Notes under the pieces: model-generated
Database searches by the model: none
The model's input: the letters and a program-made list of their open reading frames with translations, nothing else
What the model was told of the DNA's origin: nothing
Part shown: one piece after another, positions 4,096-62,142 of the stretch
How positions within the stretch are numbered: position 1 is the first letter of the stretch
Layout: each line of letters begins with the position of its first letter
DNA from: Flexilinea sp.
Lineage (GTDB): Bacteria > Chloroflexota > Anaerolineae > Anaerolineales > Anaerolineaceae
Reading direction: 5' to 3'
Assembly: GCA_017432685.1 (NCBI GenBank)
Contig: JAFRIR010000047.1
Coordinates: 1 to 64,000, forward strand
DNA: 64,000 nucleotides
Translations under genes and position numbers: made by a program

Positions 4096-4143
4096 GATTC
4101 ACGATACAGGATATAGGATTCAGAATATATATAGGATATAGGG
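4093..4143 (+). repeat. Heptad array starting at the pyk stop codon
   Basis: Starting with the stop codon TAG itself, the sequence is built of 7-base units (TAGGATT, CACGATA, CAGGATA, TAGGATT and so on), with one change of phase near 4130. It is one of about 14 such arrays in this window. Confidence 0.7.
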
Positions 4144-5241: not shown

Positions 5242-6777
5242 ATGAAGAGAAACCTCTTTTTACTTTTTATCTTCATTCTGACAATAACTGTATTCAGCGC
5301 GGGGAGACTCTCCGTATATGCACAAAGCGAAAACGAAACGGAACAAACCGCGATCCCGGGAGCAGAGCTTTCATCTGAAGAAGGAGACGGCGCAATCGCA
5401 CTGATCACCCGGGAAGAAAGCGCAATGAATGAGACAGAAGTTCCTTCCGGAGATTCAACAGATGGCGAAACTGCAGCCGAAAACGGAGATGCCGAAGCAG
5501 AAACCACACCGGAACCAACCGAAGAACCTGTGACAGAGGTCCCGGAGACTCCGGTCCCGGAAGCGCCGAGAGGCAACGCTCTCTCCAAAGAGGTCGGCTT
5601 CTACTGGGCTCCTTCCGCAAACGCAGAGCGCTATGAAATTGCCTACGCGAACGACCGTGGTTATGAGGGGATCGTGCTGGAACTGCCGGCTGATGACTGG
5701 ACCTGTCAGGCCGGGCGCTGCATCCTCTTCGAAGAACTGCCATCCGACGGCAACTATACCTGGACTGTGACAGCCGTCAATGAAGCAGGGACAGCTCCAT
5801 CCGAAGAGGTCAGCTTTGCCGTGAATGCTTTCATCCCTGCCTCAGAGGCCTACCTTCCGGGGTCCGTGCTTCCCAACAGCAAAGCGCTTTCCTTCCAGTG
5901 GGCGGATACCGGATACAATGCCACTGACTACCACATCCAGATCATGGACCAGGAAACCGGACAGATCTGTCTTGACAAATGGTACAGTACCGAACTGGTC
6001 GGCCGGATGAACGGAGTTTGCCAGCTGGATTCCGACGATTATCTTGCCAGCGGCAGCTATGCCTGGCGCGTGCAGGGCCGGAACAGCGCTTCCACTTCCA
6101 ACTGGTCTGCCTGGAAAGCGTTCAGTGTCATTTGTGAGGAATGTAATCTCGGCACCTACCTGAACACAGATAGCTGCATCATCGCCCCTAACGGCGCCAT
6201 CACCGACCCGAAAATGCCCTTTGCCTGGAAGACCGTAATGGGCGCTTCGAAATATCAGATTGAGATCAAACATTCCGACGGAACCGAATTGCTGCTGACA
6301 GATGTGACTCCTGAAACCTGTGGCGTCGAGCTATGCAGCTATCAACCTGAACTTGAGCTGAAAGCCGGTGAAAGCTATGAGTGGTCGCTGCTCACCTATG
6401 GCTGGAATGACATTTTCTGGGGATCGGATAACCGCACGTTTTCTGTGGCGGACCTGTCTGAGTCAGGAGAAGTGAACATCGAGTTTATTGGAGATTCCGA
6501 AAATCTCTCGCTGGACCCGGACAACCAGCAGATCATCTGGACGGACCCGGGGAAGGACGTGGTTTCCTTCCGTGTGGGTGTCAGCGACAGTAACGGGGAA
6601 TGGCTCTTTGTCGGTGACCTGACCCGCGATGAAGCGTGGTGCGACGGTCTCACCTGCTCTGTCCAGTTCCAGACCATTCCCGAGGGAGAAGGCTATCAGT
6701 TCACCCTGGTTCCCTATTCGGAGTTCAACATCCCGGGAGAGCCGGTTGCCGTTACGTTCAGCAATAAGGGAGAATAG
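5242..6777 (+). CDS. Secreted four-repeat fibronectin-III-like protein
   Basis: The 511-residue product has a signal peptide ending near VYAQ (residue 29), then an acidic Pro/Thr/Glu-rich stalk to about residue 110, and four FN3-like beta-sandwich repeats of about 95 residues (typical cores: YEIAYAND...YTWTVTAVNEAG; YHIQIMDQETG...YAWRVQGRN). Each repeat carries a cysteine pair; in three of them it is C-x4-C (TCQAGRC, TCGVELC, WCDGLTC). This suggests an extracellular, disulfide-stabilised binding or scaffold protein; the ligand is unknown and there is no catalytic domain or cell-wall sorting signal. An AGAAAGGA site precedes the ATG. Single-gene unit. Confidence 0.75.
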   Translation: MKRNLFLLFIFILTITVFSAGRLSVYAQSENETEQTAIPGAELSSEEGDGAIALITREESAMNETEVPSGDSTDGETAAENGDAEAETTPEPTEEPVTEVPETPVPEAPRGNALSKEVGFYWAPSANAERYEIAYANDRGYEGIVLELPADDWTCQAGRCILFEELPSDGNYTWTVTAVNEAGTAPSEEVSFAVNAFIPASEAYLPGSVLPNSKALSFQWADTGYNATDYHIQIMDQETGQICLDKWYSTELVGRMNGVCQLDSDDYLASGSYAWRVQGRNSASTSNWSAWKAFSVICEECNLGTYLNTDSCIIAPNGAITDPKMPFAWKTVMGASKYQIEIKHSDGTELLLTDVTPETCGVELCSYQPELELKAGESYEWSLLTYGWNDIFWGSDNRTFSVADLSESGEVNIEFIGDSENLSLDPDNQQIIWTDPGKDVVSFRVGVSDSNGEWLFVGDLTRDEAWCDGLTCSVQFQTIPEGEGYQFTLVPYSEFNIPGEPVAVTFSNKGE

Positions 6778-6816
6778 GTTTCAGGTTTCAGGTATTAGGT
6801 TTTAGGATATTTGATT
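6775..6816 (+). repeat. Heptad array starting at a stop codon
   Basis: Units TAGGTTT, CAGGTTT, CAGGTAT, TAGGTTT and TAGGATA follow one another in perfect register. The first three bases of the first unit are the stop codon of the FN3-like gene. Confidence 0.8.
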
Positions 6817-7214: not shown

Positions 7215-7306
7215 AAAAACTCCTGATAATAATTTTACATAAAATTGCTGTTTGTACAAGAGCGAAAAAGGATCATTTTTATTTTCAGCGAATTCTTCAT
7301 GATACA

Positions 7307-7498
7307 GGGAACCTCAAAAAACTCCAATATTTCTCTGTCCCGAGGAGATTCAGAGAATAAATTCTCTGAATCTCCTCGGGAGGTTTCCGTGGGGCGAAGC
7401 TCCTGCTCCGAATATAATTCGGGCGTCAGCCCGTACCTTACGGAGCAGGCAATAACTGCCGCCCCCATACCCCCGCCCTTTAGTTTTTAGAGGTGCCC
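7307..7498 (+). mobile_element. MITE-like element, long form (copy 1)
   Basis: A 192-bp non-coding element with terminal inverted repeats of the form GGGNACCTCTAAAAA, flanked by a 4-bp direct repeat TACA (7303-7306 and 7499-7502). It holds an 18-bp perfect hairpin (GAGGAGATTCAGAGAAT, loop AA) and, only in the long form, a second stem built from CCTGCTCCG and CGGAGCAGG. Its right end lies next to the stop codon of the nitroreductase gene (7504). Related copies: 21149, 31174, 49401, 56031. Confidence 0.8.
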
Positions 7499-7503
7499 TA
7501 CAG

Positions 7504-11611: not shown

Positions 11612-11692
11612 GCCGAAGTGGCGGAACTGGCAGACGCGCACGACTCAAAATCGTGTACCTTGTGTATGTGGGTTCGATTCCCACCTTCGGCA
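11612..11692 (+). tRNA. tRNA-Leu (anticodon CAA)
   Basis: The acceptor arms GCCGAAG and CTTCGGC pair perfectly, the T-loop region GGTTCGATTCC is canonical, and the anticodon stem CACGA/TCGTG encloses CTCAAAA, giving anticodon CAA (codon UUG). A long variable arm confirms a class II tRNA. The CCA end is not encoded. The gene has its own promoter and a terminator six bases downstream. Confidence 0.95.
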
Positions 11693-31207: not shown

Positions 31208-31210
31208 ATT

Positions 31211-31247
31211 AATTCATAATTTCTCATTCCTCATTCTTCATTCATCA
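31211..31247 (-). repeat. Heptad array overlapping a stop codon
   Basis: Units TGATGAA, TGAAGAA, TGAGGAA, TGAGAAA and TTATGAA run in register on the minus strand. The last codons of the membrane-protein gene (Asn-Asp-Glu-stop) lie in the first units, and almost every unit holds a TGA. Confidence 0.75.
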
Positions 31248-32788
31248 TTTCCCAGTATTACCCCATCCTCATAAAACCCGAATACCGGCAGGCCGTCCAG
31301 TACTGCTTCCAGCCAGACCCGGTCACCTTCATTTTCCATCATTTCCTGATAATTGAACACGACCACATAACCATTCCCGGAAAGGACCTCTTTCGTCATC
31401 CAGGCACGATCCTGTTCAAAGGACTCCCGTTCCGAGAAGGAAGCCGCGTCAAACATGGGCGGCAGAATAAAGGAAGGCTGGTCATTCAACAGCGAAAGCG
31501 CCGTCTGCCGGTTAGACCAGAGCAAATGATCTTTCGGAAGCTTCAGAGCAGCCAGCCTGGTTTCAGACTCACGCCATTCCTCTCCCGCAAAGCCCTGCCC
31601 ATTCCGGTGGTATTCTTTGATCAGGTCCAATTCATCCTCAAACAGCAGCGCAGCAAAGCCGAGCATAAACACAATTGACGCGATCCGCGGGAATCCGGCA
31701 CGGTTCAGGAAGCGTGAACAAAATGCAGCGATCAACAGCATCGCACAGACATAAAACGGCAGCAGGATGCGGTTATCGAACAGGGTAGAGCCGTCAATGA
31801 AAAAAACAGTGAAAAACAGCATGACCATGTATGCCGCGCCATGCAGGGCAGGAGCAAACCATGTAGACCTACGCAAATGACCGGAAGGACGGAAAAATCC
31901 CTTCAGCCCGGCCCATATGACCGCCCCGAGCAGGAAGATCAAAGCTCCGGCAATGACAAAGCCCCAGATCTTCAGCGGCTTTTCCACGATCCCGCCAAAT
32001 TCCGGCAGGAAGAAACCGGCAAAATTGCGGATTCCCTCTTCAACTTTAGAGGCGGAAGGAAGATGCAGTGCAAGCACCCGGTTCACCGGTGAGTCACCGC
32101 TCTCATTGCTTTTTGACAGCCAATAGCCAAAGGGAAGGTTAAAGGCCGCAAAATAAAGCAGAACGCTTTGGATCCTCATCTTCCAGGTTGAATGAACACA
32201 TAAAATATAAACAGCCACTGCCGCCACTGCCGCCAGACCCGCATAACGGGTCAGAGCCAGAGCACCGGCGAGCAAACCGATCAGCAGCCATTGCCAGACA
32301 CTGTTCCTGCGCACAGCGCGGACGGACAGAATAAATACCTCCAAAAACAAAGTCAGGTAAAGCGCCTCGCTCAGACCGTAAACGTTCGCCTGCAGCACCG
32401 GTCCCGCACATAGAAAGACGATCCCGCCGAGAACTGAGGCAAATGGTGAATGCGTCAGAGCCAAAATGGCGCCCATAAACAGCGCCTGGTTCAGCACCGA
32501 ACAGCAAAGGTTCACCCGCTTTGCCGTCTCCAGCGGGTCGGTTTTAATGATCCGGGAAACAACGGCCAGAACGATGGAATAAAAGGGCGGAAAATGAGTG
32601 ATGGGACGCGGCAGACCGTCACCGCCAATCCGTACGTAGCCCTGACGGGCGAGCAGACCGCGTGCCCCGCCGATATAGGCAGAAGAATCGTTTGTCAGCC
32701 CGACCCCATGAGGCGTGCAATACAGGAACAACGCGGCAGCCCCACCGCATAAAACGATCACTGAGAGAACAAACCATTTATTTTTCAT
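31238..32788 (-). CDS. GT-C-like polytopic membrane glycosyltransferase
   Basis: The 516-residue protein has about ten membrane segments, with the acidic first-loop motif LTNDSSAYIGGARGLL followed by FPPFYSIVLAVV, the layout of lipid-linked-sugar GT-C transferases (PMT/ArnT-like). The C-terminal 110 residues are soluble (LPKDHLLWSNRQTALSLL) and probably face outside. Donor and acceptor are unknown. A similar but unrelated-looking polytopic protein is at 51718-53400. Its C-terminus is encoded by a heptad array, and a family B repeat lies upstream of its start. Confidence 0.7.
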   Translation of the reverse strand: MKNKWFVLSVIVLCGGAAALFLYCTPHGVGLTNDSSAYIGGARGLLARQGYVRIGGDGLPRPITHFPPFYSIVLAVVSRIIKTDPLETAKRVNLCCSVLNQALFMGAILALTHSPFASVLGGIVFLCAGPVLQANVYGLSEALYLTLFLEVFILSVRAVRRNSVWQWLLIGLLAGALALTRYAGLAAVAAVAVYILCVHSTWKMRIQSVLLYFAAFNLPFGYWLSKSNESGDSPVNRVLALHLPSASKVEEGIRNFAGFFLPEFGGIVEKPLKIWGFVIAGALIFLLGAVIWAGLKGFFRPSGHLRRSTWFAPALHGAAYMVMLFFTVFFIDGSTLFDNRILLPFYVCAMLLIAAFCSRFLNRAGFPRIASIVFMLGFAALLFEDELDLIKEYHRNGQGFAGEEWRESETRLAALKLPKDHLLWSNRQTALSLLNDQPSFILPPMFDAASFSERESFEQDRAWMTKEVLSGNGYVVVFNYQEMMENEGDRVWLEAVLDGLPVFGFYEDGVILGNDE

Positions 32789-32995: not shown

Positions 32996-33037
32996 CTGCT
33001 CCCTACATCCTATATCCTAATTCCTAATTCCTAATTA
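32996..33037 (+). repeat. Heptad array upstream of murE
   Basis: Six units in register (CTGCTCC, CTACATC, CTATATC, CTAATTC, CTAATTC, CTAATTA) of the pyrimidine-rich type seen before start codons. It lies about 130 bases before murE. Confidence 0.7.
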
Positions 33038-41080: not shown

Positions 41081-42670
41081 ATGAAGAGAACTTTGTTCGC
41101 AATTCTTATGGTTGTGGCTCTGCTTGCCTGCAGTGTTCCCGCAATGGCTCAGGATAACGTTCTGCACACATATGTAGACCGTGTCTTCCGTACCTTCAGC
41201 CAGGTCAAGGGCTCCGATGGACACCTGTTCATCGTTCTCGGCTCCCTTTCCGAAGGTCTGCTGCGTCTGGATGAAAATCACAACCCGCAGCCGGCTTTGG
41301 CTGAAAGCTATACCGTTTCCGATGACGGTCTGGTCTACACCTTCACCCTGCGTGACGGCATCACCTGGAGTGACGGCACCCCCATCACCGCGAAAGATTT
41401 TGAATTTTCATGGCTTGAAGCCATGTCCGATCAGGATGCCAATGGTTATGCTGACGTGATCGCCCCCTTCATCAAGAACGGCTGGGCCTGGATGAACCAC
41501 GAAGTGGAAGCTTCCGAAGTCGGTGTCAAAGCGATTGACGACAAGACCTTCGAATGCACGCTGGAAAACCCCACCGCATTCTGGGATCGCTTCATTACCC
41601 TGCCGGTCTTCTTCCCCCTCAATGAAGAATTCTACCGTGCACAGGATGGCGGCGAACTTTATGCGACCTCTGTTGACACCATTATGTGCTGCGGCCCGTT
41701 CGTCGTCACCTACATGGACCTGGGCGTGGGCGTCACCATGGAAAAGAACCCCAACTACTGGGATGCCGAAAATGTCAAACTCGACGGCGTCGACATCAAA
41801 GTCATCACCGATTCCTCCGCTGCCCTCAATGCCTATGAAGCCGGCGAACTGGATCGCGTGAACCTTTCCTCCATCGACGTTGTCCTTTACAATTCCGATC
41901 CGGAATTCGGTTCCTACTCTGACTTCCGCAACTACTTCGTCCAGTTTGATGTCGCCAACCCGGAAATGAACCTGAACATCCGCAAGGCCATCAACTACGC
42001 GATCGACCGCGAGACACTGGTCAATGAGATCCTGATGACCGGTGCAGTCGCTGCCGGCGGTGTTGTTTCCCGCGGCATTCATGGCAATGACGAGATGACC
42101 TACCGCGATTATGCCGGTGATTTCTCCTACTACGATCCGGAACTGGCAAAACAGTACTGGGATGCCGGTGTTGCCGAACTCGGTTACACTCCTGAAATCG
42201 TCATGCTGACCGCTGAAGGTACCGACTTCGACGACATGGCCACTTTCCTGCAGGACTGCTTCCGCAAGGTTCTCGGCGTTGAAGTGACCATCAACAAGAT
42301 GACACAGAAAGCCCGCAATGAGATCATGAAGTACGAAACCTATGACTTCGCGCTCAATGCCTGGGGCGCTGACTACGATGACGCCATGACCTGGCTCGAA
42401 CTGTGGATCAACAACTCCAACGGTTATCGCGGCAATTACGGCACTCCGGAATATATCGCCATGATCGAAGATGCCCGTTCCGAAACCGACAGCGCTGTCC
42501 GCCTGGACAAGCTGGTGGCAATCGAAAAGAAGCTCATCGATGAAGACTGTGTCGTCGCCGGTATCTATGACCGCGGTTATTCCTACCTGCAGCGCCCGTA
42601 TGTGGACAAATACATCGTCCACCCGGTCGGTCAGTCTGCCGAATTCAAGTGGACAAGCATTAATAAGTGA
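41081..42670 (+). CDS. Oligopeptide ABC transporter substrate-binding protein
   Basis: An extracytoplasmic SBP_bac_5-type binding protein that captures peptides (or similar ligands such as nickel complexes or oligosaccharides). The 529-residue product has a signal sequence ending in LLACSVPAMAQ; it could be processed as a lipoprotein at the Cys or by signal peptidase I after AMA. Family blocks include LSEGLLRLDENHNPQPALAESY, VYTFTLRDGITWSDGTP, and NIRKAINYAIDRETLV. It is highly acidic. First gene of a five-gene operon; a heptad array plus partial terminator follows, which would make this gene more abundant than the permeases. Confidence 0.93.
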   Translation: MKRTLFAILMVVALLACSVPAMAQDNVLHTYVDRVFRTFSQVKGSDGHLFIVLGSLSEGLLRLDENHNPQPALAESYTVSDDGLVYTFTLRDGITWSDGTPITAKDFEFSWLEAMSDQDANGYADVIAPFIKNGWAWMNHEVEASEVGVKAIDDKTFECTLENPTAFWDRFITLPVFFPLNEEFYRAQDGGELYATSVDTIMCCGPFVVTYMDLGVGVTMEKNPNYWDAENVKLDGVDIKVITDSSAALNAYEAGELDRVNLSSIDVVLYNSDPEFGSYSDFRNYFVQFDVANPEMNLNIRKAINYAIDRETLVNEILMTGAVAAGGVVSRGIHGNDEMTYRDYAGDFSYYDPELAKQYWDAGVAELGYTPEIVMLTAEGTDFDDMATFLQDCFRKVLGVEVTINKMTQKARNEIMKYETYDFALNAWGADYDDAMTWLELWINNSNGYRGNYGTPEYIAMIEDARSETDSAVRLDKLVAIEKKLIDEDCVVAGIYDRGYSYLQRPYVDKYIVHPVGQSAEFKWTSINK

Positions 42671-42844
42671 TCAGTGGTTAGTGGTCAGTGATCAGCAGAT
42701 ACTTCAAATGATAATCTCTTAGACACTGATCGAACCCATAGACAGAAAAAGAGGAGCGGTACGTTTCGCGCCGCCCCTCTTCTTAATTACAACCGGGAAC
42801 CGACAACAGGCAACCGGCAACATGAAAAACAGTCAGAAAGGAGA
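42668..42844 (+). repeat. Heptad-array spacer between the binding protein and permease genes
   Basis: From the stop codon TGA the units TGATCAG, TGGTTAG, TGGTCAG, TGATCAG follow in register. Beyond an attenuator-like hairpin, a second array (ACAACCG, GGAACCG, ACAACAG, GCAACCG, GCAACAT, 42789-42823) runs in register into the ribosome binding site AAGGAG of the next gene. Confidence 0.8.
42749..42783 (+). terminator. Attenuator-like hairpin inside the transporter operon
   Basis: AAGAGGAGCGG pairs with CCGCCCCTCTT with one mismatch, followed by a weak CTTAATT. It probably stops or processes part of the transcripts after the binding-protein gene. Confidence 0.55.
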
Positions 42845-49245: not shown

Positions 49246-49400
49246 TTTATTAGTTGTCGGTTATCAGCTGTCGGTTGCCGGCTGACAATAATTCCTGATT
49301 TCCCGATTCTTCATCCTTCATTCACAATTCTTCATTGCTATAAAATCCGCCGCGAAGCGGCACCACAATTATTCATTATTCATTATTCTTTATTCATTAA
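49246..49400 (-). repeat. Heptad-array spacer before the methyltransferase gene
   Basis: Thirteen units in register run from 49336 to 49246 on the coding strand, ending at the start codon. A small hairpin GCCGC/GCGGC (49349-49361) separates them from a second group (TAATGAA-like, 49365-49399), into whose TTAA the MITE-like element inserted. Confidence 0.8.
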
Positions 49401-49591
49401 GGGAACCTCTAAAAACACAAATTTTTCTCTGTCCAGAGGAGATTCAGAGAATTCATTCTCTGAATTTCCTCTGGAGGTTTCCGGGGGCGAAGCTCCTGCT
49501 CCGAATATAAATCGGGCGTCAGCACGTACCTTACGGAGCAGGCAATAACTGCCGCCCCCATACCCCCGCCCGATAGTTTTTAGAGGTGTCC
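49401..49591 (+). mobile_element. MITE-like element, long form (copy 4)
   Basis: A 191-bp copy flanked by perfect TTAA duplications (49397-49400 and 49592-49595). The central hairpin differs from copy 1 by paired changes (C-to-A on the left matched by G-to-T on the right) that keep the stem. Right end two bases from the stop codon of the L-serine dehydratase gene. Contains the 62-bp long-form insert. Confidence 0.85.
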
Positions 49592-49597
49592 TTAATT

Positions 49598-50815
49598 TTA
49601 GGCTCCGGTCGGAATACGGTAGACCTTCGCCAGACCGCCTTCCGAGGTTTCCCGGTAGAGGGCGGGCATATCGATCCCGGTGTTCATCATTACCTTGATC
49701 ACATCGTCAAAACTGACCCGGTGAGAGCCATCGGAGAACATAACGAACTGCGCGGCAAAAAGCGCGGCATTAGCCGCTGCCGCATTGCGCTCAATGCAGG
49801 GCACCTGTACCAGTCCGGCGACCGGATCGCAGGTCAACCCGAGATGATGTTCCAGCCCGGATTCTGCGGCATATTCGATCTGCCGGCTGGTACCGGAATA
49901 GAAATATTCTGCTGCCGCTGCTGCCATGGCACAGGCAACACCGATCTCCCCCTGACAGCCAACCTCCGCACCGGATATCGACCCGGTATGCTTCACAACA
50001 TTGCCGAACACACCGGCAGTCGCCAAGGCACGCAGGATATTCTCTTCGGTGATATCCATTTTCTGCTGAAAATAACGCAGAACAGCCGGCAGCACACCAC
50101 AGGATCCACAGGTTGGAGCCGTAACGATCCTGCCGCCGGTGGCATTCTCTTCCGAAACAGCCAGCGCATAGGCAGACATCGGTGTGGAATGAATAAAGCC
50201 GGGACGGGTAAGCTGAGAGCGCCGAAAATAGAGATTTGCCTTCCGTGTGATTCCCAATCCACCGGGGATCACACCTTCCTGACGAACCCCCCGGTCAACC
50301 GCATCACTCATCACATGCCAAATCATCCGCAGGTAATCCCAGATATCCGAACCTTCACATTCTTCGACATATTCCCAGAAATTCAAACCATTCTCCATCA
50401 GATATTGCTGAATTTCGTTCATGTTGTGATGTGGATAGATATTGCTGATGGTTTCCGGCGGGATCCGGTCACCCTTGTCATCGATCCGTCCGCCGCCCAC
50501 GGAGTAGACCGTCCAGTCATCCGTGACAGTTCCGGCTTCATTAAAAGATTCAAACTCCATCCCATTCGGATGGTAAGGCAAAACCACATCCGGAAGCCAA
50601 CTGATCGAAGTCCGGTCTGCGCCCAAAACATCAAGGATCGCCTTATCCGTCATATGTCCCTTGCCGGTGGCGGCCAGACTGCCATAAAGGGTCACCAGGT
50701 AATGACTGGCATTGGGATTTTTCTGCACAAAAAGCTCTGCAGCCCTTTTCGGTCCCATGGTATGAGAACTGCTGGGTCCGTATCCGATTCGAAACAAGTG
50801 CTTGATGGTATCCAT
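49598..50815 (-). CDS. sdaA: L-serine dehydratase, iron-sulfur type
   Basis: Deaminates L-serine to pyruvate and ammonia with a [4Fe-4S] cluster, feeding amino-acid fermentation. The 405-residue single chain has the N-terminal lobe (FRIGYGPSSSHTMGP with the SSSHTMGP motif, then YGSLAATGKGH) fused to the catalytic part (APTCGSCGVLPAVL, GCQGEIGVACAMAAA and CDPVAGLVQVPCIERNA, which supply the cluster cysteines). The ATG at 50815 begins at MDTIKHLFRIG and has GAGGAA upstream. It may be co-transcribed with rdgB across a spacer made entirely of heptads. Confidence 0.93.
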   Translation of the reverse strand: MDTIKHLFRIGYGPSSSHTMGPKRAAELFVQKNPNASHYLVTLYGSLAATGKGHMTDKAILDVLGADRTSISWLPDVVLPYHPNGMEFESFNEAGTVTDDWTVYSVGGGRIDDKGDRIPPETISNIYPHHNMNEIQQYLMENGLNFWEYVEECEGSDIWDYLRMIWHVMSDAVDRGVRQEGVIPGGLGITRKANLYFRRSQLTRPGFIHSTPMSAYALAVSEENATGGRIVTAPTCGSCGVLPAVLRYFQQKMDITEENILRALATAGVFGNVVKHTGSISGAEVGCQGEIGVACAMAAAAAEYFYSGTSRQIEYAAESGLEHHLGLTCDPVAGLVQVPCIERNAAAANAALFAAQFVMFSDGSHRVSFDDVIKVMMNTGIDMPALYRETSEGGLAKVYRIPTGA

Positions 50816-50831
50816 AATCGATTTCCTCAAC

Positions 50832-51069
50832 AAAGAGTCAGTAGTAAGTAGTAAATATTAAGTAGTAAGTAGTAAGTAGTTAATTAGTAGTTAGGAATGA
50901 GGAATAAAAAATGAGGAATGAGAAATGAGAATCAGTTCTGACTTCTTTACTCCTTACTCCCTACTCCTTACTCCCTACTCTTTACTCCCTACTCTTTACT
51001 CCCTACTCCTTACTCTTTATTCCCTACTCTTTATTCCTTACTCCTTACTCTTTACTCGTTACTCCTTAC
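50832..51069 (-). repeat. Heptad-array spacer between rdgB and sdaA, 34 units
   Basis: All 238 bases are 34 consecutive 7-base units with no change of phase. The first 18 (51069-50944) fit GTANNGA on the coding strand, mostly GTAAGGA or GTAGGGA. Two bridging units follow, then five of CTCATTC type, then ACTACTT-type units, the last (GTTGAGG) holding the sdaA ribosome binding site. The rdgB stop codon lies inside the third unit. Confidence 0.95.
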
Positions 51070-51648
51070 TAAGAACGGTTTTGCCTTTTTGATCGCATTT
51101 CCCCGATGAGAAATGGCATTTTTCTCCGCTTCCGAGAGTTCGGCAAGCGTCTTGCTCAATTCAGGCTTATAAAAAACCGGATCATAGCCAAAACCGTTGG
51201 AGCCCCGTTCTTCCGGAATAATCTCGCCCTCGCAGGCTCCGGAAGCTGTGAGCGTCTTGTTTTCTCCCGGAAAAACGATTGCGATCTCGCAGCGAAAACG
51301 GGCAGTCCAGGGACGCTCCGCACCGCACTTTTGAATGTTCTCCAACAGGTAATGTCTGCGGTCCGCGTCATCAGCTCCGGGTTTCGGGCAATATCTTGCC
51401 GAATAGATACCCGGTTCACCGTTCAGGCAGTCAACTTCCAGTCCTGAATCGTCCGCCAGCGTCACCATGCCGGATGCCTCCGCAAAAGCTTTCGCTTTGA
51501 TCATGGCGTTTTCTTCAAAAGATTTTCCGTTTTCATCCACATCCAGTTCCAACCCGATGTCTTGCGGGCGAACGATCTCAATTCCCGGCAGCATATCGCG
51601 AATTTCCTGTGCTTTATGCGCATTATTGGTACCAATCAAAATCTTCAT
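51052..51648 (-). CDS. rdgB: XTP/dITP diphosphatase, RdgB/HAM1 family
   Basis: House-cleaning nucleotide pyrophosphatase that removes dITP, XTP and similar bases before they enter DNA or RNA. The 198-residue protein has the family blocks ILIGTNNAHKAQEIRDML, KSFEENAMIKAKAFAE, LADDSGLEVDCLNGEPGIYSARY, and GSNGFGYDPVFY and ISHRGNAIKKA. Its last five residues (Val-Arg-Ser-Asn-Glu) and stop codon are encoded by the start of a long heptad array, so the natural C-terminus has been replaced or extended by repeat sequence. Transcription probably continues into sdaA. Confidence 0.95.
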   Translation of the reverse strand: MKILIGTNNAHKAQEIRDMLPGIEIVRPQDIGLELDVDENGKSFEENAMIKAKAFAEASGMVTLADDSGLEVDCLNGEPGIYSARYCPKPGADDADRRHYLLENIQKCGAERPWTARFRCEIAIVFPGENKTLTASGACEGEIIPEERGSNGFGYDPVFYKPELSKTLAELSEAEKNAISHRGNAIKKAKPFLVRSNE

Positions 51649-53400: not shown

Positions 53401-53414
53401 CACCCTTTCTTGTA

Positions 53415-53512
53415 TCTATCAGAACGGAGCACACGGAGACTGCCATGATGCTGTCGCGAAGCCGACACAGCAGGGCTGTATCCTGTGCTGCGTTGTCGGG
53501 TTCTAAACAGTT
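53415..53512 (-). repeat. 95-bp dispersed repeat (family B), copy 4
   Basis: On the minus strand it carries the core ATACAGCCCTGCTGTGTCGG and ends CGTTCTGATAGATACAAG, next to the start region of the polytopic membrane protein gene, as copies 2 and 3 lie next to gene starts. Confidence 0.7.
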
Positions 53513-53584
53513 ACCCTTTCTTTATATTCTGACAGTTCAATTGTATCAGGAAAATTGCGGGGCTGCAACTGTAAAAATAAGTGA

Positions 53585-56004: not shown

Positions 56005-56030
56005 TCATTCTGTCCTGTTTAATTATTTAA

Positions 56031-56160
56031 GGGGACCTCTAAAAACATCGATTTCTTTCTGTCCCGAGGAGATTCAGAGAATAAATTCTCTGAATCTCCT
56101 CGGGAGGTTTCCGGGGGCTGCCGCCCCCATACCCCCGCCCGATAGTTTTTAGATGTGCCC
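56031..56160 (+). mobile_element. MITE-like element, short form (copy 5)
   Basis: A 130-bp copy with perfect TTAA duplications (56027-56030 and 56161-56164). The hairpin is the same as in copies 1 and 2, and the long-form insert is absent. It sits upstream of the Phd-like gene, with its right end facing the distant sufU stop codon. Confidence 0.85.
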
Positions 56161-56296
56161 TTAAGTTTATACTGTCTATTTTACACCAAATATTACGTAA
56201 CAATAATGATTTTTTAGAGAAAACTGAATAATTCTGATTTCACGTCATACGAGTCAACAGAACAGGTCACATTGACTCTATCTGAATAAATCAGCG

Positions 56297-56331
56297 TTTT
56301 TCTAATTCCTCATTCCGAATTTCTAATATTA
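56297..56331 (-). repeat. Heptad array at the sufU stop codon
   Basis: From the stop codon TAA five units run in register: TAATATT, AGAAATT, CGGAATG, AGGAATT, AGAAAAA. The following 130 bases up to the MITE show no gene. Confidence 0.7.
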
Positions 56332-56727
56332 GATAATGTCTTCCCAGGCATGACCTTCGACACCGTAAAGGCCGGCTTTGAGGCACTTGAGGGAGAGCAT
56401 CGCGCATTTGATGCGGGCCGGACCGAGCGTTTCCAGGCCCAGCAGGTCCAGAACGTCTTCCTTGGTCATGTTCTTGACCTCATCCACGTTTTTCCCGATC
56501 ACTTCTTCCAGCAAAAGATCCGCGCTTGCCTGAGAAATGGCGCAGCCATGTCCCTCAAAACGGGCATCAGTGATGATATTGTTCTCGTCTACATTGAGCA
56601 TGATCCGCAGTTCATCACCGCAGGAAGGATTTTCATCCTCATAACTGTGGTTACAGGGATCCAGCGTTCCCCGGTAGGAAGGGTTTTTGTAATGCTCAAT
56701 GATCAGTTCGCGGTACATGTCGTCCAT
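56329..56727 (-). CDS. sufU: Iron-sulfur cluster assembly scaffold SufU
   Basis: Zinc-containing IscU-like protein that accepts sulfur from SufS. Three cysteines are conserved: Cys36 (NPSCGDEL), Cys62 (GHGCAISQAS) and Cys108 (RIKCAMLSL), with Asp38 nearby. The 132-residue product starts at ATG 56727 behind GAAGGAAA, at the family's usual MDDMYRELIIEHYKNP. A longer upstream frame is just the translation of a heptad array. It is the last gene of the suf operon, adjacent to sufS as in Firmicutes. Confidence 0.95.
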   Translation of the reverse strand: MDDMYRELIIEHYKNPSYRGTLDPCNHSYEDENPSCGDELRIMLNVDENNIITDARFEGHGCAISQASADLLLEEVIGKNVDEVKNMTKEDVLDLLGLETLGPARIKCAMLSLKCLKAGLYGVEGHAWEDII

Positions 56728-56753
56728 AGTTATTTCCTTCGTATTCAAATTAG

Positions 56754-56889
56754 AATGAGGTTTTGAAAATGAAAAATGAGAAATTAGAAATGAAAAATTT
56801 TGGTGTCGCTTCGCGACTTCTGAAGACAAAGGGACTTATATTGTGTTTTCGATAATTTCTCATTTATCATTTCTGATTTCTCATTCTCA
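56754..56889 (-). repeat. Heptad-array spacer between sufS and sufU
   Basis: From the sufS stop codon (TGA, 56889) six units follow (TGAGAAT, GAGAAAT, CAGAAAT...). In the centre is the hairpin GTCGC-TTC-GCGAC (56805-56817). Seven units of the complementary type (read on the plus strand as AATGAGA, AATTAGA and so on) run from 56802 to 56754 towards the sufU start. Confidence 0.85.
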
Positions 56890-58113
56890 TCCAAATAATC
56901 TATATACGTACATCAGCGCCTCACAGAGACGCTCGATATCTTCTTCAGTGTTATAAATGTAAAAACTGGCGCGGGTAGTCGCCGGGACATTGAAGCGTTC
57001 ATGCAGCGGCATGGCACAATGGTGTCCCGCCCGGACACATACATTCCGTGAGCCGAGAATGTCAGCGGTGTCATGCGGGTGCACATAATCGAGGGTAAAG
57101 CTCACAGCGCTGCCGCGATTTCCCTCTTTCGGGCCGAAGATCTTCAGCCCCGGGATCTCCGACAGACGATCGATCGCCAGCTCTGTCAGCATTTTTTCGT
57201 GTGCAAAAACGTTTTCCATACCCAGCCCATTGAGATAATCGATTGCCGCGCCAAAGCTGACTTCCTCTGCGATGGAGGGTGTTCCGGCTTCGAATTTATA
57301 GGGCAGTTCATTGCAGGTGAAGGAACCGAAATGGACCTTGCCGATCATGTCACCTCCGCCCAGAAACGGGGGCATGGCGTTCAGCAGTTCTTTTTTCCCG
57401 TAAAGCGCCCCAAGCCCGGTCGGGCCCAGCATCTTGTGAGCGGAAAAGACCATGAAATCCACATCCAAATCCTGTACATCAACGGGCATATGCGGGACAG
57501 ACTGGGCACCGTCCACCAGGAACAATGCTCCGGCCGCATGGGCATCCCTCACCATCTCCCGAATATCGGGGATCGTACCGAGAACATTGGACATACCCGT
57601 GACGGATACGAGTTTCGGTGCGCAGCGTTTCAGCAGGTCCCGCCAGGCATCCATATCCAGCTGAAAATCATCCGTGACCGGGATAAATTCCACTTTAATG
57701 CCGATCTTTTCCGCAAGCATATACCAGGGGACCAGGTTGGAGTGATGCTCCATCTGACTGAGCAGTACCGTATCCCCTTGCTTCAGGTTTGTTTCACCCC
57801 AGCTGCGGGCAACAAGGTTGATCGCTTCGGTAGCATTACGGGTGAAAATAACCTCGCTGACGGACTTCGCATGGATAAAATCCCGGATCTTTTTCCGTGT
57901 CGTTTCCGTGGCTTCCGTTGCCCGTTCGGAAATAGCATAAATACCCCGGTGAACGTTGGCGTTATATTCGCTGTAATATTCACTGACGGCATTGATGACC
58001 GAAAGCGGTTTCTGAGAAGTAGCTCCGGAATCAATATAGCAGATGCGTTTCCCATCCGGACCTGTCTGCTGCAAAATCGGAAAATCTTTGATGATTTCTG
58101 AACTGTTAAACAT
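56887..58113 (-). CDS. sufS: Cysteine desulfurase SufS
   Basis: PLP enzyme that removes sulfur from cysteine as a persulfide for cluster assembly. Landmarks: YIDSGATSQKP near residue 26, TRNATEAINLVARSW, SQMEHHSNLVPW, the PLP lysine in VFSAHKMLGPTG, and the persulfide cysteine in VRAGHHCAMPLHE. With 408 residues it is a normal group II desulfurase. It lies between the 88-residue gene and sufU, separated from both by heptad arrays. Confidence 0.96.
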   Translation of the reverse strand: MFNSSEIIKDFPILQQTGPDGKRICYIDSGATSQKPLSVINAVSEYYSEYNANVHRGIYAISERATEATETTRKKIRDFIHAKSVSEVIFTRNATEAINLVARSWGETNLKQGDTVLLSQMEHHSNLVPWYMLAEKIGIKVEFIPVTDDFQLDMDAWRDLLKRCAPKLVSVTGMSNVLGTIPDIREMVRDAHAAGALFLVDGAQSVPHMPVDVQDLDVDFMVFSAHKMLGPTGLGALYGKKELLNAMPPFLGGGDMIGKVHFGSFTCNELPYKFEAGTPSIAEEVSFGAAIDYLNGLGMENVFAHEKMLTELAIDRLSEIPGLKIFGPKEGNRGSAVSFTLDYVHPHDTADILGSRNVCVRAGHHCAMPLHERFNVPATTRASFYIYNTEEDIERLCEALMYVYRLFG

Positions 58114-58134
58114 GAATCGTATCGATCAGCCTTT

Positions 58135-58267
58135 CTTGGTTGCTGGTTATCAGTTGCTGGTTGCCTGTTTTCAGTTATCGGTTGTCAGTTTTCTATAATC
58201 AGCAACCAGAAACCAACAACTATCAACTACCAGCAACTAATAACCAGTAACCAGCAACTATCAACTA
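58135..58267 (-). repeat. Heptad-array spacer upstream of sufS, 19 units
   Basis: From the stop codon TAG (58267) 19 units follow without phase change to 58135. The first ten are of the type TAGTTGA / TGGTTAC, the last eight of the type AACCAGC / AACTGAT, which are the reverse complement of the first type in shifted phase. The array therefore forms one large imperfect inverted repeat. Confidence 0.92.
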
Positions 58268-58531
58268 TTCTCTCGTATTTGGCCGCACAGCAGGAGATGT
58301 GATGGGATACCAGAGAATATGATCCGGCACCATCCATCCGTCCGTAAGATATACATTGGCACGGAACTGCACCGCGATCATCTTCGGATCGGATTGAACG
58401 ACAATGCCGCGGATCCAGCCGTGACGGCGTTCGCCCTTGCGCTCATAGTCACAGTTGACCTCGACGATATCGCCGACTTCATATTGCTGCCCCCAATCGG
58501 TGGCTTTCAGTGGAGGTGTGGAATGAGGCAT
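58265..58531 (-). CDS. 88-residue protein embedded in the suf operon
   Basis: A small soluble protein with many beta strands: YEVGDIVEVNCDYERKGER, HGWIRGIVVQSDPKMIAVQF, YLTDGWMVPDHILWY. The strand pattern with conserved Gly, Trp and Tyr residues looks like an SH3-like or Tudor-like barrel. It has a single cysteine, so it is unlikely to be a classical scaffold. It is placed two bases after sufD and before sufS, where other suf operons have no gene or sufE-like genes. A role in cluster assembly is suggested only by position. No family recognised. Confidence 0.7.
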   Translation of the reverse strand: MPHSTPPLKATDWGQQYEVGDIVEVNCDYERKGERRHGWIRGIVVQSDPKMIAVQFRANVYLTDGWMVPDHILWYPITSPAVRPNTRE

Positions 58532-58533
58532 GT

Positions 58534-59697
58534 TTATTCTCCTTCTTCCATTTTGGAATCAATTTTGCTCTGCAGTTTCCCTCGGATCGGCGAATAGGTG
58601 ACAAGGTTCAGGATCGTGTCAAAGAAACCACGGATCACCAGTTTTTCCGCTTCGCGTTCCGGAATGCCGCGGCTGGTGAGATAAAAGATCTGGTCATCAT
58701 CGATGTTTGTGATGGTGGTCCCGTGAGAGCATTTGACATCGTCCATGATGATCTCCAGCCCCGGTTTCGCAAAGACCTGAGCCTCATCGGAAAGCATCAG
58801 GTTTTCATTTTTCTGATAGCCATCTGTCTTATTGGCTTTTGGATCCACGTAGATCATCCCTTCCCAGCTGGCATTGGCGCGGTCCGCAAGAGCGCCTTTG
58901 TAATGAAGGTTCGAGAAGGTACGCGGTACCAGATGATCCTGCCGTGTTTCGATGTGCATCAGCTGATCTTTGACCGGGAAATAAAGTCCATAAACGACAG
59001 CCGAAGCGTTTTCACCTTCCATTTTCACGTCAAGACTGTCATAGCTCTTTGCGCTGCCCAGCTCGCAGATGTTCCAGTGGAAATCACCGCCTTCCCGTAC
59101 AATGCTCTGTTCACGGCGGACAGCAATGGTTTTGTTTCCGAAATCCTGTACTTCATTCAGCACCAGATGGGCATTTTTCCCCACAGAGCAGTAAATCTGT
59201 CCGGCAAAAAGGTTTTCATTGCCGCCGCCGCGGGAGTGCATGTTCAGCGTAACGATTGCAGAGGCATCATCATCAAGGATGACAAAGATCTTCAACAGCG
59301 CTGCGCGGGAGGCTTCGCAAAGCTCCACATCCAGCAGAAATTCCCGTTTCTGGCACATTTTCCGCGGAATAAACAGCACAATGCTGTCGGCTGTCAGCGT
59401 TACGATTTCTTTCGCAAACGGATCATCTGCATCATTTCTGATGAATGCTGCGAGTTTTTCCGCCAAACTCAGATGATCGTTCAGAACCTCATTTCCTGTA
59501 GTGAAAACAGCGCCTTTTTCAACCGCTTTCGGGCACAAAAATACCGACTGCTGTCCATCCTTCCAGATAAAATGGGCACAGAGATCATCAACGTGCTTCT
59601 CTTTTTCGAGTTTTTCCACCGGCAGGGAATACCGTTCCGTTGTGTTCGCAAGTGCATTTTCCAGGATTTCTGATAAGTTTTCTTTAAGCTTCGCCAT
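58534..59697 (-). CDS. sufD: Fe-S cluster assembly protein SufD
   Basis: Partner of SufB in the SufBC2D scaffold complex. The 387-residue protein has the divergent N-terminal part and the beta-helix core ending in DVKCSHGTTITNIDDDQIFYLTSRGIPEREAEKLVIRGFF (the SufD histidine is in KCSHGTT). The ATG at 59697 (MAKLKENLSEIL) is preferred to an upstream start whose extension is the translation of a heptad array. It follows sufB after about 60 bases and precedes the 88-residue gene by two bases. Confidence 0.92.
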   Translation of the reverse strand: MAKLKENLSEILENALANTTERYSLPVEKLEKEKHVDDLCAHFIWKDGQQSVFLCPKAVEKGAVFTTGNEVLNDHLSLAEKLAAFIRNDADDPFAKEIVTLTADSIVLFIPRKMCQKREFLLDVELCEASRAALLKIFVILDDDASAIVTLNMHSRGGGNENLFAGQIYCSVGKNAHLVLNEVQDFGNKTIAVRREQSIVREGGDFHWNICELGSAKSYDSLDVKMEGENASAVVYGLYFPVKDQLMHIETRQDHLVPRTFSNLHYKGALADRANASWEGMIYVDPKANKTDGYQKNENLMLSDEAQVFAKPGLEIIMDDVKCSHGTTITNIDDDQIFYLTSRGIPEREAEKLVIRGFFDTILNLVTYSPIRGKLQSKIDSKMEEGE

Positions 59698-59719
59698 TCT
59701 GTATCCTAATTTTATTCCA

Positions 59720-59761
59720 GAATACTGATCACTGACCACCAGCCACTGACCACTAAGATTA
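59720..59761 (-). repeat. Heptad array between sufB and sufD
   Basis: From the sufB stop codon TAA six units run in register (TAATCTT, AGTGGTC, AGTGGCT, GGTGGTC, AGTGATC, AGTATTC). The AGTGGTC unit is the same as after the oligopeptide-binding protein gene at 42668. Confidence 0.8.
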
Positions 59762-61174
59762 TCCGACCGAATCCGACATCTGCAGCTGAATCAGGCGGTT
59801 CATTTCCACCGCATATTCCATCGGCAGCTCTTTGACCAGCGGCTCGATGAAGCCGGAAACGACCATCGAGGTCGCGTCTTCTTCACTCAGCCCGCGGCTC
59901 ATCAGGTAAAACAACTGCTCCTCACCCACTTTGGAGACAGATGCCTCGTGCCCGATGGAGACATTCTTCTGTTTCACATCCATGGTCGGGTAGGTATCCG
60001 ATTGAGAGATCGGATCCAGGATCAGCGCGTCGCACACCACATTCACTTTGGCATTGACCGCACCCGGCATCACCTTCACCAATCCGCGGAAGGAAGACCG
60101 GCCACCGTTCTTGGAAATGGACTTGGATGTCACTTTGCTGGATGTGTTCGGTGCAAAGTGAACCATCTTGGAACCCGCATCCTGGATCTGGTTCCGTCCG
60201 GCAAAAGCCATGGAAAGCATTTCACCGTGAGCTCCCTCTTCCATCAGGTAGCAGGCGGGATATTTCATGGTCACATGGGAACCAAGGTTGGAGTCGACCC
60301 ACTCCATCGTCCCGTTAGCAAATACCTTGGCACGCTGGGTCACGAGGTTATAGACATTGGTGGACCAGTTCTGGATGGTCGAATAGCGCACCCGGGCATC
60401 CCGCTTGACCACGATCTCGATCACACCGGAATGGAAGGAGTTCGTGGTGTACTGCGGGGCAGTGCAGCCCTCCACATAATGGACCTGAGAACCCTCATCC
60501 GCAATGATGAGCGATCGCTCAAACTGACCGACATTGGCCATGTTCATGCGGAAGTAAGCCTGAAGCGGCAGCTCCACATGCACGCCCTTCGGTACATAAA
60601 CGAAGGAACCGCCGGACCAGACCGCACCGTTCAGCGCGGCAAATTTGTTGTCGTTATATGGCACCACCGTGCCGAAATATTCCCGGAACAGGTCCGGATA
60701 AAGCCTCAGCCCGTCTTCAATGCTGACGAAGATCACGCCCTGCTTTTCCAGCTGTTCCTGGATGGAGTGGTAAACCATCTCGGATTCATACTGTGCACCG
60801 ACACCGGCCAGGAACTTCTGTTCGGCTTCCGGGATACCCAGCTTGTCAAAGGTGTTTTTGATGGTCTCCGGGACGTCATCCCAGCTTTTTTCGGACTTTT
60901 CCGACGGACGGACATAATACACCAGATGATCCAGATCCAGATTCGAGACATCCGGACCCCAGTCCGGCATCGGACGCTTACGGAAATGGTCCAGGCTCTT
61001 GAGCCGGTAATTCAGCATCCATTCCGGTTCTCCCTTCATGGCTGAGATCTGCCGGACAACTTCCTCATCCAGTCCCTCTTTTGTTTTGAATACAGAGACA
61101 TCGGGATCCTGAAAGCCGTAAGCCTCATTGTTCAGCCCAAGATCATCGTAGTTTTGTTTAACGCTGTCATTCAT
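59759..61174 (-). CDS. sufB: Fe-S cluster assembly protein SufB
   Basis: Core scaffold subunit on which nascent clusters form. The 471-residue protein has the typical N-terminus ([17 protein letters not shown]), [24 protein letters not shown], the [10 protein letters not shown] block containing a conserved cysteine, and the end [40 protein letters not shown]. Length is normal. Its start codon overlaps the last unit of a three-unit heptad array right behind sufC. Confidence 0.97.
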
Positions 61175-61194
61175 TTCTTATTTCTTATTTCTTA
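61174..61194 (-). repeat. Three-unit heptad array between sufC and sufB
   Basis: The stop codon TAA of sufC starts three identical units TAAGAAA, and the sufB ATG begins with the last base of the third unit. The stretch serves as both stop region and leader of the next gene. Confidence 0.85.
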
Positions 61195-61956
61195 TTTCTG
61201 ATTTTCTTTCAGCCACTCGTAGCCCTTCTCTTCCAGTTCCAGAGCCAGGGAATCGTCGCCTGAGCGGACAATGTGACCGTCCATCATCACATGGACAGCA
61301 TCCGGTTTGATGTAATCCAGCAGGCGCTGATAATGGGTAATGACCAGAACACCCATCCCGTTTTCCTGCACCAGCATGTTGACACCCTCCGCGACAATGC
61401 GCAGCGCGTCGATGTCCAGACCGGAGTCGATCTCATCCAGAATAGCGATTTCCGGCTGCAGTACAGCCATTTGCAGGATCTCGGTGCGTTTTTTCTCGCC
61501 GCCCGAAAACCCGTCATTGAGATAACGGGAGGCAAAGGACGAATCCATCTTGAGCTTATTCATCTTTTCCCGCAGCAGCTTGCGGAAAGCCGGTACCGGA
61601 ATGCCATGATCCTCCGGGTCCCGGGCTTTGCGCTGGGTGTTCAAAGCAGTTCTCAGGAAATTAGCCACGGTAACACCGGGGACAGCCACAGGATATTGAA
61701 GCGCAAGGAAGAGACCGGCATGAGAACGCTGGTCCGGGGTCCAGTCGTTGATGCGTTCGCCGTTCATCAGGATATCACCGGAGGAGGGACGATAGGCAGG
61801 GTGACCCATAATGGTATAGGAAAGGGTGGATTTGCCGGTCCCATTCGGGCCCATGATAGCATGGATCTCACCTTTCGGAACTGTTAGTGAAAAATTTTCG
61901 ATGATCTGTTTTTCGTGAACACTGACGTAAAGGTTTCTAATTTCCAATCCACTCAT
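61192..61956 (-). CDS. sufC: Fe-S cluster assembly ATPase SufC
   Basis: ABC-type ATPase of the SufBC2D complex. Walker [17 protein letters not shown], signature [13 protein letters not shown], Walker [15 protein letters not shown] and the H-loop [11 protein letters not shown] are all clear, and 254 residues is the normal size. It is the first gene of the suf operon, preceded by an extended -10 promoter and a leader with a hairpin. A CAGGAGTG site lies before the ATG. Confidence 0.97.
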
Positions 61957-62053: not shown

Positions 62054-62081
62054 AAACAAGAAACAAGAAATAAGAAATAAG
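62054..62081. repeat. Short heptad array upstream of the suf promoter
   Basis: AAACAAG, AAACAAG, AAATAAG, AAATAAG in register on the plus strand, between the Asp-box lipoprotein gene and the suf promoter. Confidence 0.7.
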
Positions 62082-62142
62082 AAGGGCTGTCTGTCGGAAA
62101 AAAATCAAACAGGATAACTACCCGGAACCCGGCAAGGCAGAG

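Follow-up and report, generated by a model that had tools for sequence, protein, structure and literature searches.

The stretch of DNA analysed here, 64,000 nucleotides long and hereafter called the window, is contig 12 of a source genome of 3.97 Mb in 151 contigs, whose bin has an estimated contamination of 4.7%. By SdaA protein sequence, its closest named relatives (89-90% identity) are bins labelled Anaerolineaceae, from goat abomasum, and uncultured Chloroflexi bearing RUG isolate names, which we take to denote a rumen series, and these nearest relatives suggest a gut origin for the window's DNA. Genes were called with a simple ORF caller of our own rather than a published one, and the identities of rdgB and sdaA, both on the minus strand, were borne out by Pfam and NCBIfam. 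Rfam, searched at gathering scores, returned no family at the arrays described below, its sole match in the window being a tRNA at 11612, which ARAGORN identified as tRNA-Leu. The bin also holds a second sdaA neighbourhood (L153, contig 141, C141), with about 70-88% protein identity and different heptad arrays of its own, which may reflect a bin mixing two species, or a duplication. The two genes and the sequence between them are laid out as follows, in the direction of transcription:

51052-51648, minus strand: rdgB/HAM1 (XTP/dITP diphosphatase), by Pfam and NCBIfam; its C-terminus finishes in array sequence
50944-51070, minus strand: arm adjoining rdgB, purine-rich on the minus (gene) strand, with units like AAGGAGT; includes the rdgB stop codon
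50932-50943, no strand assigned: turn between the arms, about 12 nt
50836-50931, minus strand: arm adjoining sdaA, pyrimidine-rich on the gene strand, with units like ACTACTT and TCATTCC; reaches the sdaA ribosome-binding site
49598-50815, minus strand: sdaA, L-serine ammonia-lyase, from an ATG start (simple ORF caller); 49598-50833 from a TTG in the ORF list

Between 50832 and 51069 the sequence matches itself with an identity of 0.727 at lag 7, 0.719 at lag 14 and 0.654 at lag 21, and the other lags up to 24 give 22-42% (best 0.423). The original prediction had read this spacer as 34 consecutive heptads without a phase slip, and one register is indeed kept throughout, with a lag-7 identity of 0.73. 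That the heptads make up one uniform array did not hold, as they form two opposed arms around the turn; nor are they confined to the spacer, as the array extends into rdgB, whose stop and last codons are array sequence. The RdgB protein ends in ...KPFLVRSNE, with its stop codon supplied by the array, and RdgB of relatives ends 1-4 residues past the matching PFL or PLL (translated by eye). One long imperfect hairpin is predicted for the RNA of this spacer (-74 kcal/mol, z -3.3).

Arrays had been claimed at 14 places in the window, the focal one included. The claim stood for 12 of them, which beat all of 1000 Markov shuffles, and less firmly for 61174, matched once, and 56297, matched 8 times in 1000; where a place had been given by a single coordinate, its end was set by us after viewing the repeats. 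Three of these places, 42668-42844 (0.41), 49246-49400 (0.49) and 56754-56889 (0.47), consist of heptad arms around non-heptad middles. The further arrays of the window, whose suf genes lie at 56329-61956, are:

4103-4142, plus strand: weak heptad array after ORF 2680-4095
6776-6806, plus strand: AGGTTTC array, beginning at a stop codon
15249-15390, minus strand: heptad array with two opposed arms
31210-31249, minus strand: array holding the stop codon of ORF 31238-32788
33002-33036, no strand assigned: array in a divergent spacer
42666-42822, plus strand: two short heptad arms with a non-heptad middle
49368-49399, minus strand: ATTATTC array in the spacer downstream of sdaA
56755-56889, minus strand: inverted heptad array between sufS and a sufU-like gene, with a hairpin in 5 of 5 genomes
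58135-58268, minus strand: array of inverted heptads separating ORF 58265-58531 from sufS (fold z -7.4); 3 of 4 relatives have a 6-nt spacer at this place
59724-59754, minus strand: weak heptad array between two SufBD-core genes
61173-61204, minus strand: AAGAAAT array across the junction of a sufC-like and a sufB-like gene, common to the relative G006
62054-62083, no strand assigned: AAACAAG/AAATAAG array

The seven-base period is specific, and it extends over the genome. Across 713,514 bases of the same bin, lag 7 at a threshold of 18 returned 101 segments between genes and 4 in coding sequence, with lags 5, 6, 8-11 and 13 returning none; at a threshold of 14 the same bases gave 131 and 5 at lag 7, 2 at lag 5, 2 at lag 9, 1 at lag 10 and 0 at the rest. 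Lag 12, counted separately in two sets from this genome, gave 2 and 3 segments. Most stretches of one set from this genome had been picked for a match to TTACTCC; another set, picked by contig number (272 kb without N, threshold 16), held 19 segments at lag 7 and 0 at seven other lags. Exactly doubled k-mers were counted in 1.02 Mb and in one Markov shuffle, and numbered 1124 against 1149 for k=5, 705 against 310 for k=6, 2131 against 75 for k=7, 17 against 29 for k=8, 53 against 7 for k=9 and 7 against 0 for k=10. This 1.02 Mb of one genome contains 164 lag-7 segments. Among spacers of at least 20 nt, the tandem type carries an array in 76 of 246 cases, the convergent type in 12 of 51 and the divergent type in 7 of 51. 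The loci thus belong among intergenic heptanucleotide SSR arrays, tandem units of 7 nt exceeding other lengths, mainly between genes; the lag-7 excess was tested for in intergenic regions other than the focal one and was found there as well.

Read in gene direction, the purine-rich arm comes first and the pyrimidine-rich arm second, an arrangement that, in sense as well as order, is repeated elsewhere in the genome and in its relatives. With the purine strand defined by an EM motif, and 28-nt blocks taken within 50 nt of genes, gene 3' ends had 88 blocks in sense and 5 in antisense orientation, and gene 5' ends 30 in antisense and 5 in sense. A PWM arm finder was dropped, having called 152 arms against 126 in reversed sequence; as it did not discriminate, polarity and pairing were redone with purine content only. 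The ratios by purine content alone were 71:8 at 3' ends (71/79) and 28:4 at 5' ends (28/32) in this genome, and 32:3 (32/35) and 9:3 (9/12), respectively, in four relatives together. Tandem spacers with both arms run from purine to pyrimidine in 27 cases against 1 reverse in this genome, with two further ones mixed, and in 12 against 0 in the relatives; one arm only is present in 45 of the 75 array-bearing tandem spacers of this genome (32 purine, 13 pyrimidine). The purine strand of the arrays had no link to the GC skew of the stretch (37/35/33/31), and by that measure there is no replication-strand bias.

The stop codon lies at or in the array in 57 of 83 pairs of an array and a nearby gene 3' end, and 22 genes have ends that lie 7 nt or more within an array. 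Compared with column-permuted controls, stop codons in the units were slightly more numerous in sense (631 vs 584) and clearly more numerous in antisense (280 vs 146), and ATG fell below its control (88 vs 179). A stop-signal function is not claimed here; a phase bias could jointly explain the stop and ATG counts. The original prediction, partly supported as a whole, had not noticed that purine arms precede pyrimidine arms, that sense follows a rule at gene ends, or that stop codons lie inside arrays.

One way to account for opposed arms is that the arrays are mainly RNA hairpins kept by selection, for termination, processing or protection of transcripts, with the heptads being the way in which stems are built and rebuilt. 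The purine-to-pyrimidine order of tandem spacers is in keeping with this, and so is the pairing of arms, which on average are complementary: over 52 opposed pairs from this genome and its relatives, arms pair better with their own partner (-20.8 kcal/mol) than with a swapped one (-13.8), with 0 of 5000 permutations doing as well (7 of 2000 in an earlier version with 30 pairs from this genome). Array spacers also fold better on average (mean z -3.6, 13 of 22 below -2.5) than array-free ones (mean z -2.2, 11 of 32), and the sufS-sufU spacer has a hairpin in all five genomes compared (z -2.4 to -8.2), built of opposed heptads, whose sequences differ by eye, in this genome, G005, G006 and G013, and as an ordinary hairpin in G012. 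However, several array spacers have no fold (z near 0) or have relatives without a hairpin there, 45 of the 75 spacers mentioned above bear a single arm, and the focal arms pair no better with each other than with arms swapped between loci (-20.2 vs -19.5). Nor is the order of units clearly mirrored between arms (14 better, 8 worse, n=22), a count that likewise gives no support to fold-back copying with mirrored unit order. We thus consider it unlikely that the arrays are mainly hairpins of this kind, and the sufS-sufU site may be a special case.

The fixed sense of the arrays relative to genes would also suit units that a regulator recognizes on RNA or DNA, a role proposed for TAACTGA in Beggiatoaceae, and a TNAG tendency in the units points the same way, being found in this genome (G000; 405 vs 169 expected by column permutation), G005 (87 vs 42) and G006 (86 vs 31). 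Yet TNAG is a local bias and no universal consensus, as it is not enriched in G013 (28 vs 27), in G070 and G122 (14 vs 11) or in other taxa (13 vs 12). Moreover, exact doubling inside 192 lag-7 segments involves 65 heptad families, 51 of them reaching at least 5 positions against 0 in a shuffle, and the same gene carries different arrays in sister species, all of which makes a regulator reading these units very unlikely. A count of 127 families over the whole sequence was set aside, one shuffle already giving 61.

Within arrays, unit identity falls with distance, from 0.79 at one unit, a value raised by the lag-7 selection of segments, to 0.42 at sixteen, a value resting on 8 segments (42 segments of at least 56 nt in all). 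Related copies of an array region, which may be paralogues or strain variants, lie on three contigs of the bin, and their lengths differ by 35, 28 and 7 in one array, with two of them differing by 7 in a second; the three pairwise differences amount to two independent ones, giving three independent multiples of 7 in total. The L091/L221 pair shows otherwise just 1-nt internal gaps, and the L091/L142 copy pair differs by 6, not 7. No difference in length was seen in two arrays of a G006 copy pair (L204/L207) and in one array shared by the window and G006. Over 57 listed pairs, the flank-to-flank difference was zero in 6; in the remaining 51 every residue modulo 7 was represented (residue 0: 10), which is what non-homologous arrays in different species would be expected to give; most of these pairs are between species and many come from the same few sites, and the length-step result uses the pairs within the bin alone. 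The six zeros are three L155/L170 rows and the three arrays just named. L155/L170 (the same stretch twice) and L085/L085 and L235/L235 (flank matches within one stretch) were left out of the length counts. Taken with the lag-7 specificity, the decay of identity and the copy lengths, most of which differ by multiples of 7, render the earlier proposal that a process copies seven bases at a time well supported.

To follow the arrays between species, we compared 24 spacers with both neighbours conserved in 1-5 other sequences (G005, G006, G012, G013 and the second copy on C141). Fifteen of the 24 hold an array in at least one sequence at a threshold of 14, 9 of them in this genome, and 10 of the 15 hold it in one sequence only, counts that depend on the threshold, as at sufS-sufU three relatives also count at a threshold of 12 and at 59698-59758 G006 resembles G005 by eye. 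Sites that are shared mostly have differing units; the clear exception is 61173-61204, common to G006, and at L096 site 6 this genome and G006 have AGGTNTC-type units in common. The median length of tandem spacers is 152.5 nt with an array (n=16) and 22 nt without (n=75), those with an array being longer by medians at 10 of 11 sites. Unit numbers at conserved spacers are thus not fixed among relatives.

Could arrays that change so between genomes stem from short-read metagenome assembly or binning? The genome is in 151 contigs with the contamination given above, a second, diverged sdaA neighbourhood lies on C141, and repeat lengths can be wrong in short-read assemblies, an origin that we assume for this one. 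Against this, G005, G006 and G013 follow the same sense rule with units that differ at a given junction, and a preference of purine arms for positions after stops is not expected of an artefact, which leaves such an origin scarcely credible.

The occurrence of the arrays is lineage-specific. Lag-7 segments per 100 kb numbered 18.8 in the window, 23.1 in the set mostly picked for TTACTCC, 7.0 in the contig-number set and 15.2 in a further set of this genome, and 14.9 in G005, 13.6 in G006, 4.4 in G013 and 0.6 in G012; these densities are no fair averages, many of the relatives' stretches having been chosen because they were syntenic with arrays of this genome or gave a match. Seven further genus-mates whose stretches could be read (about 156 kb; two more held only N) had none, and neither did eleven genomes from other genera in the family (164 kb). 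A 21-letter AAGGAGT probe, allowing up to 3 mismatches, matched 13 of 121 family genomes, some of them once and weakly; the reversed control found matches in several others. Among 77 loci of other taxa (threshold 16), lag 7 gave 12 segments in 9 loci, lag 8 gave 5, lags 6 and 9 gave 3 each and lag 10 gave 1. Heptad arrays were also seen in Bacteroidota-labelled loci fetched with sdaA (L035, L049, L070, L073, L075, L076 and L080). Loss of sbcD or mutS was considered as a cause and was not supported: all 25 genomes examined had MutS-type genes, and 24 of the 25 gave an sbcD match (only a fragment in G002, a genus-mate, and none in G028, of another family), and with matches so nearly universal, no repair loss tracking the arrays was found.

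The original prediction had regarded arrays of this kind as new, and this was not supported, as heptamer arrays have been published for Xanthomonas and Nostoc (PMC4692102), Beggiatoaceae, cyanobacteria and Bacteroidetes (PMC4679880) and Chloroflexus (PMC6749651). Heptamer repeats are over-represented in many bacteria, and the comparisons that follow draw on the accessible portions of these sources. The GGGAATC repeats of Xanthomonas and GGGGA(C/T)T repeats of Nostoc are intergenic, lie at many loci near ORF ends and vary in length, with the G-rich strand coding-sense downstream and non-coding upstream and few repeats between divergent ORFs; two Xanthomonas genomes hold 70 and 75 inverted pairs, with variation in length and sequence between sister species, and the majority of repeats lie between the same genes in both (PMC4692102). 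The arrays studied here likewise have their purine- or G-rich strand in sense downstream of ORFs and in antisense upstream, and they resemble the Xanthomonas heptamers further in being intergenic, at many loci, in inverted pairs, variable between sister species and few in divergent spacers. Polarity, inverted pairs and length variation between sister species are thus already known (Xanthomonas, PMC4692102). Unlike Xanthomonas and Nostoc, with one G-rich unit type, this genome has many units, mostly at non-shared junctions, and no GGGAATC or GGGGAYT doublet occurs in 1.02 Mb of it.

Similar comparisons apply to other systems, again as far as the available text of the sources goes. TAACTGA forms intergenic direct repeats in Beggiatoaceae, cyanobacteria and Bacteroidetes, Microcystis has mixed heptamers, TAACTGA is accompanied by further heptamers in Bacteroidetes, close relatives of Gramella and Aequorivita have shorter, repeat-free spacers, and indels between two Cyanothece strains are mostly 7 nt (PMC4679880). 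Intergenic heptamers, mixed units and relatives with shorter, array-free spacers are found here too, whereas in Maribeggiatoa a single unit recurs in 2-6 copies, for the most part immediately ahead of start codons, and the available text describes neither arms nor sense at stop codons (PMC4679880); TAACTGA doublets number 0 in our stretches of this genome, G005 and G006. Chloroflexus aurantiacus, of the same phylum, has 22 satellites but from one heptamer, (GATAGRA)n (PMC6749651), doublets of which number 0 in our stretches of this genome and 1 in G005. The tandem heptanucleotide elements of Geobacter metallireducens, putative regulator sites that are mostly paired, are short and of fixed consensus (49 aligned copies in one family, 16 in another; PMC2700814), and a Xanthomonas typing locus contains three different 7-bp motifs (PMC8002079). 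As for Geobacter, no GGGACCG doublet was found in the stretches checked here. Tandem heptanucleotide repeats are known from Calothrix as well, presumably those that go by the name STRR. They comprise three heptanucleotides (PMC4692102), set families in a cyanobacterium, and are set apart here by description only. Distinctive of the present genome are the many different units and their fast turnover between sister species; the published literature searched, with subscription journals thinly covered, yielded no report of differing heptads at the same junction in sister species and none of a sense rule tied to array-carried stop codons.

The explanation that we consider best, with a probability of about 0.72, is local tandem growth in 7-nt steps that recurs and on which selection acts as a filter at gene ends. 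Growth would start from a short seed where two genes meet, duplicated in seven-base steps, most likely by slipped-strand replication, and point mutations would then make the units drift. The birth of arrays would be frequent and independent, leaving the same spacer with different heptads, or none, in sister species, and selection would filter their survival, so that arrays stay mostly outside coding sequence and are purine-rich on the sense strand after stops, often carrying the stop itself, and pyrimidine-rich before starts. Polarity would fit such selection in that purine units may supply stops at gene ends, and spurious ribosome-binding sites ahead of starts may be kept away by pyrimidine units, although on C141 a purine array reaches the next start codon directly. 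In some spacers, a pair of opposed arms with related units would give the RNA a long hairpin, and certain sites, for example sufS-sufU, may make use of it. Slippage has been proposed for heptamers before, and a link of heptamer excess to the DNA stretch touched by the polymerase has been proposed as well (Mrazek et al. 2007, as cited in PMC4692102 and PMC4679880); on its own, slippage leaves both the number 7 and the complementarity of arms unexplained.

A distinctly doubtful idea ties array growth to transcription: the purine-rich transcript after a stop, where ribosomes leave the RNA, may form an RNA-DNA hybrid, replication or repair there would add seven-base steps, and the opposed arm would arise by strand switching. 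If so, the sense rule would be an imprint of mechanism and not of selection, and the clade would be a natural experiment on the bacterial preference for seven-base repeats. This genome has many units, several genus-mates have no arrays in the stretches examined, and a given junction can be set side by side in its array-bearing and array-free forms, so that both the source of the seven-base step and that of the sense rule are testable by comparison. The comparisons made here show that bacterial operon spacers can be rewritten species by species.

Several dispersed repeats were also noted. A repeat of about 170 bp adjoining several heptad arrays (L086:12893-13070) has matches in at least 10 stretches of the bin. 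Within the window, a dispersed repeat of ~140 bp at about 56014-56181, not heptad and with a 44-nt palindromic core at 56062-56105, has at least 39 further copies in the bin at 87-94% identity, and a repeat of about 209 bp (7292-7499 and 49385-49592, 90% identity) has matches in ten other stretches of the bin. A repeat of about 100 bp at 53406-53528 recurs, among the matches listed, in the bin itself and in all four sister genomes, at 74-87%.
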